Part shown: positions 41,491 to 44,766 of the stretch, one piece after another | How positions within the stretch are numbered: position 1 is the stretch's first letter | Layout of the letters: each line of letters starts with the position of its first letter | From: Hylemonella sp. | GTDB taxonomy: Bacteria; Pseudomonadota; Gammaproteobacteria; Burkholderiales; Burkholderiaceae_C | Assembly: GCA_030680575.1 (NCBI GenBank) | Contig: JAUXVI010000023.1 | Coordinates: forward strand, 1-64,000 | DNA length: 64,000 bases | Reading direction: 5' to 3' | Position numbers and translations under genes: made by a program | The notes under the pieces: generated by a model | What the model saw: the letters and a program-made list of their open reading frames with translations, nothing else | Databases searched by the model: none | What the model was told of the DNA's origin: nothing

Positions 41491-42951
41491 ATGATTTCCC
41501 GCGAACCCACCCTGGAGCGCCTGGCCATTGCCAGGGATCTGTTGCTGACGCCCTTCGGGCTCGATGAGTCTCACCTCACGCGCGCGCTGGCCGAGATCCG
41601 CGCCCACCGGGTCGACGACGCCGATCTGTATTTCCAGTACACGCGCAGTGAGGGCTGGAGCCTGGAGGAGGGCATCGTCAAAACGGGTTCCTTCAGTATC
41701 GACCAGGGCGTTGGCGTGCGCGCCGTCAGCGGTGAGAAGACGGCTTTTGCCTATTCCGACGATATTTCCGAGGCCTCGTTGCTCGATGCCGCGCATACGG
41801 TGCGCACCATCTCCAGCGCGGCCAAGTCGATGCGCGTGAAGGCCGGAACGCCCAAGATCGCTTCGGCACGCTCGCTCTATCCGGGCATGGACCCGATTGC
41901 CACGCTTGACAGCACGGCCAAGGTCAAGTTGCTCGAGACGGTGGAGCAATTGGCGCGTGCCCGTGACCCGCGCGTGGTGCAGGTCATGGCGGGTCTGGCC
42001 GGCGAGTACGACGTGGTGATGGTGGCGCGTGCCGACGGCACGCTGGCGGCCGATGTGCGGCCGCTGGTGCGGCTGAGCGTGACGGTGATTGCCGAGCAGT
42101 CCGGCCGGCGCGAGATGGGTTCCTCCGGCGGCGGTGGCCGTTTCGGACTAGCGTATTTCGACACGGCACGGATTCACCAGTATGTCGACGAGGCGGTGGA
42201 CGCTGCGCTGACCAACCTGGAGTCGCGCCCGGCGCCAGCCGGCGAGATGACCGTGGTACTCGGGCCCGGCTGGCCTGGCGTGCTGCTGCACGAGGCCATC
42301 GGCCACGGACTGGAGGGCGATTTCAACCGCAAGGGCTCAAGCGCATTTTCCGGCCGCATCGGCCAGCGCGTCGCGGCCAAGGGTGTGACGGTGCTGGATG
42401 ACGGCACCCTGGCCGACCGGCGCGGCTCGCTTAACGTCGACGACGAGGGTAACGCCAGCCAGCGCAATGTGCTGATCGAAGACGGTATCTTGAAGGGCTA
42501 CATGCAGGACGCGATGAACGCGCGCCTGATGAAGGTGCGGCCCACCGGCAATGGCCGGCGCGAGAGCTACGCCCACATCCCGATGCCACGCATGACCAAC
42601 ACCTACATGCTGGGCGGCGACAAGACGCCGGAGGAAATCGTGGCCAGCATCAAGAAGGGGCTGTATGCCACCAACTTCGGTGGCGGCCAGGTCGACATCA
42701 CCTCCGGCAAGTTCGTCTTCTCGGCCAGCGAGGCGTACTGGGTGGAAAACGGCAAGATTCTGTATCCGGTCAAGGGCGCCACCATTGTCGGCAACGGCCC
42801 GGACGCCCTGACGCGTGTCACCATGATCGGCAACGACATGCAGCTTGACAGTGGGGTTGGCACCTGTGGCAAGGAGGGGCAGAGTGTGCCTGTGGGCGTG
42901 GGACAGCCCACCTTGCGTATCGATGGCCTGACGGTTGGCGGGACCGCCTGA
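41491..42951 (+). CDS. tldD: Metalloprotease TldD
   Basis: Subunit of the TldD/TldE peptidase, which degrades unfolded peptides and processes modified peptides. The protein is 486 aa. The zinc-binding HEAIGHGLEGD motif lies in VLLHEAIGHGLEGDFNRKG at about 267-278. MGSSGGGGRFG, NTYMLGGDKTPEEIV and GNDMQLDSGVGTCGKEGQ match the family. ATG 41491 is preceded by GAGG very close to the start. The partner tldE/pmbA is not in the window. Confidence 0.94.
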   Translation: MISREPTLERLAIARDLLLTPFGLDESHLTRALAEIRAHRVDDADLYFQYTRSEGWSLEEGIVKTGSFSIDQGVGVRAVSGEKTAFAYSDDISEASLLDAAHTVRTISSAAKSMRVKAGTPKIASARSLYPGMDPIATLDSTAKVKLLETVEQLARARDPRVVQVMAGLAGEYDVVMVARADGTLAADVRPLVRLSVTVIAEQSGRREMGSSGGGGRFGLAYFDTARIHQYVDEAVDAALTNLESRPAPAGEMTVVLGPGWPGVLLHEAIGHGLEGDFNRKGSSAFSGRIGQRVAAKGVTVLDDGTLADRRGSLNVDDEGNASQRNVLIEDGILKGYMQDAMNARLMKVRPTGNGRRESYAHIPMPRMTNTYMLGGDKTPEEIVASIKKGLYATNFGGGQVDITSGKFVFSASEAYWVENGKILYPVKGATIVGNGPDALTRVTMIGNDMQLDSGVGTCGKEGQSVPVGVGQPTLRIDGLTVGGTA

Positions 42952-42983
42952 CGCAGCTTGCGCCCGGGGTGCTGATTTTTCTG

Positions 42984-42992
42984 TGCTATATT
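42984..42992 (+). promoter_or_regulatory. Extended -10 promoter of the aroG leader
   Basis: TGCTATATT is an extended -10 element (TGn plus TATATT). No -35 lies at a proper distance. Initiation about 7 nt downstream would fall on or next to the leader ATG at 42999, so the leader peptide would be leaderless. Confidence 0.55.
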
Positions 42993-42998
42993 GAATCC

Positions 42999-43070
42999 AT
43001 GGTTTCGACCCGTTCCTACTTTTTTGGCTACTTTTGGTTCTCAAGCGCCGTCGGCGGAAGAGAGTTCTGA
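42999..43070 (+). CDS. Aromatic-rich leader peptide of aroG (23 aa)
   Basis: A 24-codon ORF beginning MVSTR. It then reads SYFFGYFWF, with eight aromatic residues in its 23, and ends GGREF. Seven of nine consecutive codons are Tyr, Phe or Trp (about 43017-43040), as in pheA/trp-type attenuation leaders. The stop is at 43068-43070 and the terminator hairpin begins 33 nt later. No ribosome-binding site precedes ATG 42999, consistent with a leaderless start. The DAHP synthase gene it precedes makes the aromatic precursor, so the regulatory logic fits. It is shorter than most annotation cut-offs. Confidence 0.8.
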   Translation: MVSTRSYFFGYFWFSSAVGGREF

Positions 43071-43133
43071 ACGTACCCACAAGAAACGTACCGAATTCCA
43101 CTAAACCGCCGGCCAGTCCGGCGGTTTTTTTTT
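43052..43133 (+). promoter_or_regulatory. Transcription attenuator of aroG
   Basis: A strong intrinsic terminator: AAACCGCCGG (43103-43112), 5-nt loop, CCGGCGGTTT (43118-43127), T run to 43133. Its 5' arm can instead pair with CGGCGG at 43052-43057, inside the end of the leader ORF (6 G-C pairs plus a G-T and one more G-C). A ribosome stalled on the aromatic codons would leave 43052-43057 free and favour this antiterminator. A ribosome reaching the stop would cover it and allow termination. The pairing is seen in sequence; the switching is inferred. Confidence 0.8.
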
Positions 43134-43174
43134 GACCGAATCACACATTCAATCCGAATACAAGGAGCGACACG

Positions 43175-44302
43175 ATGACTGCCAAAGCACAACCCTCCAG
43201 CACCGATGCCTGGTATACGCACCCTGGTGACAAGACCAGCCGTACCGACGACCAACGTATCAAGGACATCACCGTGTTGCCCCCGCCCGAGCATCTGATC
43301 CGCTTCTTCCCGATCCAGGGAACACCCGTGGAGAGCCTGATCTCCCACACACGCCACAGCATCCACAACATCATGCACGGCAAGGACGACCGTCTGCTGG
43401 TCGTCATCGGCCCGTGTTCCATCCATGACCCGGCCGCCGCGCTCGAGTACGCCCGACGTCTGAAGGCGCAACGCGAGAAGTACAAGGACACGCTGGAGAT
43501 CGTGATGCGCGTCTATTTCGAGAAGCCGCGTACCACAGTCGGCTGGAAGGGTCTGATCAACGACCCCTACCTGGACGAGAGCTACCGCATTGACGAGGGC
43601 CTGCGCATTGCGCGCCAGTTGCTGATCGAGATCAACCGCCTGGGCCTGCCGGCCGGCAGCGAGTTCCTCGACGTGATCTCTCCGCAGTACATCGGTGACC
43701 TGATTTCCTGGGGCGCCATCGGCGCGCGCACCACCGAAAGCCAGGTGCATCGCGAACTGGCCTCGGGCTTGTCGGCGCCCATCGGCTTCAAGAACGGTAC
43801 CGACGGCAACATCCGGATTGCCACCGACGCCATCCAAGCGGCGGCGCGCGGCCACCACTTCCTGTCGGTGCACAAGAACGGCAAGGTCGCCATTGTGCAG
43901 ACCAATGGCAACAAGGACTGCCACGTCATCCTGCGCGGCGGCAAGGCGCCGAACTACGACGCCGCCAGCGTCACGGCGGCGTGCAAGGAGCTGGAGGCCT
44001 CGAAGCTGCCGGCCAGCTTGATGGTGGACTGCAGCCATGCCAACAGCAGCAAGCAGCACGAGAAGCAGCTTGATGTGGCACGCGACATCGCGGGTCAGCT
44101 GGCCGACGGCTCGCGCCACGTCTTCGGCGTCATGGTGGAAAGTCACCTGCATGCCGGCGCGCAGAAGTTCACACCGGGCAAGGACGATGCCGGCAACCTG
44201 GAGTACGGCAAGAGCATCACCGATGCCTGCCTGGGATGGGACGACTCGCTGGAAGTGCTGGAAGTCCTGTCCGGCGCGGTCAAGGCGCGCCGGGAGCGTT
44301 AA
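43175..44302 (+). CDS. aroG: 3-deoxy-7-phosphoheptulonate (DAHP) synthase, class I
   Basis: First enzyme of the shikimate pathway, condensing PEP and erythrose 4-phosphate. The protein is 375 aa. Hallmarks: LLVVIGPCSIHDPAAALEYA, VMRVYFEKPRTTVGWKGLIND (in parts), GFKNGTDGNI, LMVDCSHANSSKQ. It belongs to the AroF/G/H-type class. Which amino acid inhibits it cannot be told; the leader contains Tyr, Phe and Trp codons. It has AAGGAG at 43161-43166 upstream of ATG 43175. The last 4 bp overlap the convergent gene. Confidence 0.96.
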   Translation: MTAKAQPSSTDAWYTHPGDKTSRTDDQRIKDITVLPPPEHLIRFFPIQGTPVESLISHTRHSIHNIMHGKDDRLLVVIGPCSIHDPAAALEYARRLKAQREKYKDTLEIVMRVYFEKPRTTVGWKGLINDPYLDESYRIDEGLRIARQLLIEINRLGLPAGSEFLDVISPQYIGDLISWGAIGARTTESQVHRELASGLSAPIGFKNGTDGNIRIATDAIQAAARGHHFLSVHKNGKVAIVQTNGNKDCHVILRGGKAPNYDAASVTAACKELEASKLPASLMVDCSHANSSKQHEKQLDVARDIAGQLADGSRHVFGVMVESHLHAGAQKFTPGKDDAGNLEYGKSITDACLGWDDSLEVLEVLSGAVKARRER

Positions 44303-44766
44303 GGCGTACCGGCCTTGTCGATCATGGCCCTAGCCCAGCTCTGGGCTTCGGCCATGGTGGCGAAGGTCTGGAACGGGCGGCCGGCATCGGCGAAAATCTT
44401 CGCGAAGTGGGGGGCCATGAACTGGCCCCCCTCGACCTCTGGGCCTATGACATAGGCCGTAGCCACCGGGGTGAACTGCGGCGGCGCTTGACGGATCAGT
44501 TCAGCGTAGCGCTGCAGGCCGTCCGGCGTGGCCAAGGCGCTTTTGCGCACGGTGCAGATGCTGACCCAGGGGCCGCTCGGTTGAAGCGCCTGCAGGAAAT
44601 TCGACTGCGCCACCGCCAAGCAATCTGCCAGTTCCTTGTTGAAAGGCCCGGTGGACTCGTAATGCAGCAGATTGCCGTCCATCCACATGTCTACCTGCCC
44701 GTGCGGGGCGAACGGCGTGACCTTCACCTGGGTGGTGCTGCTTTTCGGTGATGTGTCGGAAGTCAT
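44299..44766 (-). CDS. Hypothetical protein, 155 aa
   Basis: A soluble protein with no signal peptide. It shows KVTPFAPHGQVDMWMDGNLLHYES, GPFNKELADCLAVAQSNFLQ, GPWVSICTVRKSALATPDGL, and near the end FAKIFADAGRPFQTFATMAEAQSWA. The alternation of beta strand and helix and the final F...A.AW segment recall STAS/SpoIIAA-like folds, but I cannot assign a family. It is convergent with aroG (4-bp overlap) and upstream of mpl in the same direction, 132 bp away. Confidence 0.7.
   Translation of the reverse strand: MTSDTSPKSSTTQVKVTPFAPHGQVDMWMDGNLLHYESTGPFNKELADCLAVAQSNFLQALQPSGPWVSICTVRKSALATPDGLQRYAELIRQAPPQFTPVATAYVIGPEVEGGQFMAPHFAKIFADAGRPFQTFATMAEAQSWARAMIDKAGTP

Follow-up and report, generated by a model that had tools for sequence, protein, structure and literature searches.

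The window (the whole stretch of DNA that was analysed, 64,000 nucleotides of a Hylemonella sp. contig) carries a gene for DAHP synthase downstream of a TldD/PmbA-family gene. Between the two lie a short open reading frame (ORF) rich in aromatic codons and an intrinsic terminator, which an initial annotation had interpreted as an attenuator with a leaderless leader peptide. The features, with the roles proposed for them, are listed here in window coordinates.

42951: stop of the TldD/PmbA-family gene, the upstream neighbour
42982..42992, forward strand: extended −10 element TGTGC-TATATT (TGTGCTATATT), read from the sequence; TGCTATATT occupies 42984–42992
42999..43070, forward strand: leader peptide ORF of 23 amino acids, reading MVSTRSYFFGYFWFSSAVGGREF and a stop; its first base is the predicted transcript start
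43017..43040, forward strand: control codons Y F F G Y F W F, from the ORF translation
43038..43042, forward strand: region 1 (UUCUC), 5′ side of the protector hairpin, within the ORF
43052..43057, forward strand: region 2 (CGGCGG), 5′ side of the antiterminator
43060..43064, forward strand: GAGAG, 3′ side of the protector (1:2) hairpin
43103..43133, forward strand: intrinsic terminator (3:4 hairpin) with its T run
43106..43111, forward strand: region 3 (CCGCCG), common to antiterminator and terminator
43162..43167, forward strand: Shine-Dalgarno sequence AAGGAG of the DAHP synthase gene
43175..44302, forward strand: DAHP synthase gene of the aroFGH family, assigned by TIGR00034 and solved structures

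The ORF with its Tyr, Phe and Trp codons is present where the initial annotation had placed it, and so are the 10-bp stem and the nine Ts. The stem spans 43103–43127 and has 10 pairs, of which 7 are G-C, closing a five-base loop. The Ts occupy 43125–43133, with the first three sitting in the outer A-T pairs of the stem. The alternative pairing that had been proposed was also found: CGGCGG at 43052–43057 can pair with CCGCCG at 43106–43111, inside the 5′ arm of the terminator. An additional hairpin that had not been listed, between UUCUC (43038–43042) and GAGAG (43060–43064), supplies the remaining helix of the classical four-segment arrangement. Folded as a whole to minimum energy, the leader is predicted to form both the 1:2 hairpin and the terminator, at −42.7 kcal/mol (z −2.1, with 5 of 200 shuffled sequences doing as well). 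Rfam gave three matches within 42000–44500, all below gathering, the best being sroD over the terminator, and a search of a plasmid collection returned no match.

The product of the downstream gene passes TIGR00034 (537 bits, cut-off 173) and falls short of the AroG equivalog NF006723 (549 bits, cut-off 568). The best solved chains for the enzyme, 1n8f, 5cks and 1gg1, are those of E. coli AroG, Phe-sensitive by name. The same genome encodes a second DAHP synthase that is 57% identical (L026), and no such leader was found in the stretch upstream of that gene.

A near set of 108 loci was assembled from 28 loci in 24 of 26 genomes of the same genus, the other 2 having no matching locus, and from the best 80 of more than 590 named contigs. 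The nearest of these by DAHP synthase come from Hydrogenophaga, Ramlibacter, Polaromonas and Acidovorax, which we take to belong to the Comamonadaceae; the set as a whole is mostly of that family, with Polynucleobacter and one Solimonas in addition. As the initial annotation had anticipated, the aromatic codons and the stem are conserved in close relatives: an ORF that starts with ATG and has three or more aromatic residues within nine positions, lying behind TGNTANNNT, precedes the DAHP synthase gene in 97 of the 108 loci. The 11 misses are 7 loci without the element, 3 paralogs (L026–L028) and 1 contig that starts at the gene (L066). Locus L043, in whose segment the terminator was unrecognised, was dropped after this count, leaving 96 near leaders.

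The attenuator is absent from three loci of same-genus genomes of 1.7–1.9 Mb (L022–L024) and from four of Polynucleobacter (L099, L104, L106 and L107), and in all of these the TldD-like gene is the immediate upstream neighbour of the DAHP synthase gene. The leader is present in two further records with the title Polynucleobacter (L085 and L090), so that some lineages may have lost the switch. The locus from a record titled Solimonas (L086, Solimonas sp. SE-A11), a genus of gamma-proteobacteria, has the same leader and a DAHP synthase 84% identical to that of the window, suggesting either transfer of the gene together with its switch or contamination.

To follow the element further, RNA model R1 was built on 52 leaders and a broader model, R2, on 56. 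At E up to 1e-4, R1 had a match in 194 of 200 family genomes and in 176 of the 179 good genomes among them; at E up to 0.01 it matched 120 of 399 genomes of the order, and R2 matched 85 of 300 order genomes at E up to 1e-4; these large searches used stricter filters, with which weak matches are lost. The element is near-universal in the family and is present in a minority of the order as sampled, other families included. Within the genome of the window, the window locus is the sole strong R1 match (E 9.6e-24), the next having E values of 0.14 (same terminator, opposite strand) and 0.52. Leaving the window aside, 89 of the 123 order-level matches were fetched. The 69 with E below 3e-4 all precede a DAHP synthase gene on the same strand, and 58 of these 69 come from outside the family of the window. 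In one batch of 29 (L112–L140, 11 from that family) every match lies before the gene, on the same strand and 19–145 nt away; in the remaining 60, 45 lie before a DAHP synthase gene and all 15 failures have E values of at least 3.3e-4. Order matches at E of 3e-4 or above mostly represent something other than this element, 15 of the 20 fetched loci having no DAHP synthase gene close downstream. From the order loci outside the family, 61 leaders were picked by aromatic content, irrespective of promoters. This set leaves out L116 and L133, the latter because the finder accepted ATG starts only. By eye, L133 has an aromatic ORF (1501–1637) that apparently starts with GTG.

The reading frame of the leader is marked in several ways. 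In the 96 near leaders, 32% of in-frame codons are for Phe, Tyr or Trp, compared with 12% in either wrong frame and 11% after shuffling of the nucleotides. The order set reaches 30% in frame, a figure inflated by picking each start for the greatest aromatic content. When close leaders are compared, codons that differ by a single base are synonymous in 53% of cases in frame versus 7% and 41% in the other frames, the pairs not being independent and one wrong frame coming close behind the true one; in the part before the Trp codon the values are 54% in frame and 13% and 23% otherwise. The last Phe/Tyr-Trp codon motif inside the ORF (the match on which this test was run) shares the frame of the ATG in 86 of the 88 leaders that have the motif, at seven different distances. 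Judged by its recurrence and by these frame tests, the leader element is more than chance.

We then counted the helices across leaders. Default RNAalifold returned part of the terminator and none of the other helices in its consensus, and the helices were therefore named by hand before counting. The UUCUC/GAGAG helix is paired in 90.4% of cells in 52 leaders. Compensatory changes had been named by the initial annotation as a check on the stem. Covariation of the 1:2 hairpin and of the terminator is weak, with few double changes and slid controls equal. Region 2:3 pairing is found in 76% of cells, compared with 24–55% in slid controls, and regions 2 and 3 differ jointly between clades. Because the search required GGCGG:CCGCC, only the next base tests this pairing, and it could be scored in 135 of 157 leaders, 22 being left out. 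In the 102 leaders with C or T at one place and G or A at the other, the combinations were C-G in 67, T-A in 21 and a discordant C-A or T-G in 14; in the other 33 of the 135, one of the two places holds a different base. The near set contributes 60 C-G and 5 T-G, with no association within it, and the order set 7 C-G, 21 T-A, 8 C-A and 1 T-G, so the joint change is mainly between clades and is uncorrected for relatedness. One divergent leader (L095, 2776–2900) has regions 2, 3 and 4 that are unlike the usual form yet fit one another (GGGGCGGCT, AGCCGCCCC and GGGCGGTT).

Codon placement was scored over the control region as defined in PMC1183508, with the ribosome footprint masked through 12 nt beyond the first base of the A-site codon. 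L031 and L051 were dropped from the near set for this purpose (n = 94) and 9 of the 61 from the order set (n = 52). Between 5 and 12 codons before region 2, aromatic codons occur in 39 to 88 of 93–94 near leaders per position, and at positions 3 to −1 they fill 3 of 450 cells. Under the mask, the number of predicted 2:3 pairs is 5.5 with the ribosome at offset 5, remains high for stalls farther upstream, and is 3.1 at 4, 0.3 at 3 and 0 at 2 or nearer. The aromatic codons have the same border in the 52 scored order leaders. The window leader would form 8.0 pairs of the 2:3 helix with Trp13 in the A site and 0 from codon 16 to the stop, and once the ribosome has reached the stop codon, fewer than one 2:3 pair is predicted in 93 of the 94 near leaders. 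At an aromatic stall, at least 4 predicted 2:3 pairs are reached in only 65 of the 94 leaders. When the RNA was folded at equilibrium, ribosome-free and before region 4 is made, the window leader favoured 2:3 (7.7 pairs) and 2:3 was predicted to be off in only 57 of 94 leaders; a default-off switch would thus need folding kinetics or a translating ribosome.

The element has these parts of ribosome-mediated amino acid attenuators of the trpL/pheL/hisL type: a short ORF in which codons for the amino acids made by the pathway are clustered, an intrinsic terminator between that ORF and the biosynthetic gene, and an antiterminator excluding the terminator, as indicated by 2:3 pairing and its between-clade changes. 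A stall is also predicted to free region 2 and reading to the stop to cover it. The logic of attenuation that had been proposed thus gains backing from conservation, codon placement and alternative pairing, and we put the probability at about 0.85 that the element controls the DAHP synthase gene by ribosome-mediated transcription attenuation, leaderless start included.

In the mechanism that we infer, RNA polymerase would start at the A of the leader ATG and a ribosome would initiate on the 5′-terminal AUG without a Shine-Dalgarno sequence. When Phe (mainly), Tyr and, in this leader, also Trp are plentiful, the ribosome would pass Y-F-F-G-Y-F-W-F and reach the stop at 43070, where it would cover CGGCGG, leaving region 3 to pair with region 4 and terminate transcription. 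Under a shortage of charged aromatic tRNA, the ribosome would stall on the aromatic codons and block UUCUC. The 1:2 hairpin would then be prevented, CGGCGG would pair with region 3, and the enzyme gene would be transcribed.

Which amino acids are sensed was assessed from the codons. Phe is present in all 96 near leaders, Tyr in 95 and Trp in 88, and in the 61 leaders from elsewhere in the order the corresponding numbers are 61, 56 and 20. The suggestion that one leader senses all three amino acids is thus only partly supported: Phe codons are present in 157 of 157 leaders and Tyr codons in 151 of 157, but Trp is not general and is missing from 41 of the 61. The Trp codon is a trait of the near set, and Phe is the likeliest main signal, to judge from these counts. 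A narrower form of the explanation, for which the odds appear evenly balanced, is a Phe attenuator, perhaps also responding to Tyr, with Trp as a bystander codon. The closest solved enzymes, Phe-sensitive AroG, are in line with this reading, as is a Ser at the Phe-specific position of the enzyme, though the second DAHP synthase of the genome shares that Ser. A further parallel is the aroR leader of Corynebacterium glutamicum, which has Phe-Tyr-Phe before the DAHP synthase gene aroF (described in PMC11802643, which cites Neshat 2014, and in PMC4046766); expression of aroF rises under Phe limitation and is reported to answer to Phe and not Tyr (PMC11802643).

Two observations speak against a bystander role for Trp: its frequency in the near leaders, and its position, since 53 of the Trp codons in the 94 scored leaders lie 5–6 codons before region 2, near the last stall that would free region 2 (another 23 lie at 9 codons). 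With Phe and Tyr codons throughout and one Trp often near that last position, the leader of the window and its near set might work as an OR-gate for the three aromatics. Being read without a ribosome site, it would respond only in transcripts from its own promoter, and read-through from TldD would terminate by default. We offer this version tentatively and consider it somewhat doubtful.

No promoter-like pair of sigma-70 type −35 and −10 elements was found within 42500–43400. In 95 of the 97 loci TGNTANNNT ends 6–8 nt ahead of the leader ATG, the gap being 6, 7 or 8 in 21, 54 and 20 loci and 9 or 10 in one each. Loci had been selected for an extended −10 at 3–12 nt before the ATG, and it is therefore the sharp peak of the gap, not the presence of the element, that serves as the test. 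In the same segments, none of 295 other ATGs has an extended −10 at 6–8 nt upstream. A Shine-Dalgarno-like motif at −20 to −5 of the leader ATG was found in 0 of 97 loci (background, 177 of 1736 windows), an absence partly forced because the −10 occupies part of that stretch; such a motif lies ahead of the candidate DAHP synthase start in 85 of the 97. In the 61 order leaders outside the family, TANNNT was counted 28 times at gaps of 6–10, and no other single gap up to 49 has more than 3 occurrences; a Shine-Dalgarno-like motif precedes the leader ATG in 6 of these leaders. A transcript that begins at the seventh base after the hexamer, that is, with a hexamer ending at −7, would start at the A of the ATG or 1–2 bases earlier across gaps of 6–8; in the window, where the ATG lies six bases past the hexamer, it would start exactly at that A. 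The comparison thus gives good support to a leaderless leader mRNA, with its start predicted from the −10 spacing, and the absence of a ribosome site that had been noted in the window holds across the 97 loci. The E. coli pheL and trpL leaders have conventional ribosome sites.

The same evidence weighs on an attenuator whose leader is translated from a longer RNA, arising by read-through from TldD or using the in-frame GTG at 42969. An in-frame GTG does give a 33-amino acid version in the window, and an in-frame upstream start occurs before any stop in 80 of 97 loci, but only 12 of the 97 have one with a Shine-Dalgarno-like motif, at scattered distances of 9 to 144 nt. Together with the tight −10 spacing and the missing motif at the leader ATG itself, this makes the longer RNA improbable.

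TnaC exemplifies another kind of leader, in which the nascent peptide arrests the ribosome in response to a free small molecule, in place of slow decoding of starved codons. Recurrent FYFWFS-like motifs in the near set would suit such an arrest peptide. Order-wide, however, the residues vary among F, Y and W and in number and position, and the aromatic zone stops where the ribosome would cover region 2, as stalling on codons predicts; we regard arrest by the peptide as very unlikely. That the terminator merely ends the upstream gene constitutively, with an incidental ORF, is barely credible: it does start 152 nt after the TldD stop, but conservation extends to the frame, the aromatic codons, the start spacing and region 2, and DAHP synthase follows in 69 of 69 fetched order matches with E below 3e-4.

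Attenuation of the DAHP synthase gene, the reading that we prefer, has relatives among described systems. An attenuator at a DAHP synthase gene instead of pheA or trp, as first proposed for the window, is supported here and has a precedent in C. glutamicum aroR-aroF, which resembles it in placing an aromatic leader peptide ahead of such a gene; that system is actinobacterial, Trp is unmentioned in the accessible text, and the two were compared by description only (PMC11802643; PMC4046766). In Sinorhizobium meliloti, the first bases of the trpL/rnTrpL attenuator RNA are the ATG start codon of the leader peptide, and this RNA may serve as a leaderless mRNA (PMC7298713). The window leader would share this start, its 5′ end being a prediction, whereas the S. 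meliloti system was studied by experiment and concerns Trp and trpE(G) rather than DAHP synthase. The E. coli pheL-pheA and trpL-trp systems share aromatic control codons, the 1:2/2:3/3:4 logic and an intrinsic terminator (in part PMC11802643) and differ in serving genes other than DAHP synthase. The DAHP synthase genes of E. coli are controlled by TyrR and TrpR (PMC11802643).

No Burkholderiales DAHP synthase attenuator was found in the literature searched, which consisted of titles and beginnings of abstracts, with most subscription journals outside its coverage; the main text of PMC2965389, on premature terminators, mentions neither aroG nor aroF nor DAHP. Since a DAHP synthase attenuator and a leaderless leader peptide are each already known, the element in the window combines known parts in a widespread family. 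Within the searches made, the Burkholderiales family, the leaderless design at DAHP synthase and the Trp variant appear to be new.

If the proposal is correct, many Burkholderiales would regulate the first step of aromatic synthesis by attenuation and not, as E. coli does, by repressors, and this can be tested. The leaders would also provide a large number of natural, apparently leaderless mRNAs in which initiation must match the pace of RNA polymerase, useful for studying leaderless initiation and transcription-translation coupling in beta-proteobacteria. The leader ORF and its RNA are candidates for genome annotation and Rfam.

Searching the whole class gave matches in 28 of 369 genomes (E up to 0.001), of which three belong to the family of the window. 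Of 17 other loci fetched, a leader precedes DAHP synthase in 4, and 13 are without DAHP synthase. An aromatic leader precedes DAHP synthase in L201–L204, from two families outside the order, and on visual inspection a −10-like element lies near the ATG in L201 and L202. In three genomes of one genus (L220, 1611–1759, in G278; L189 in G217; L221 in G142), an aromatic leader-like ORF (YFYWYRSS) with a terminator precedes, instead of DAHP synthase, a gene without a Pfam match and a gene with a sub-threshold match to DUF4870.
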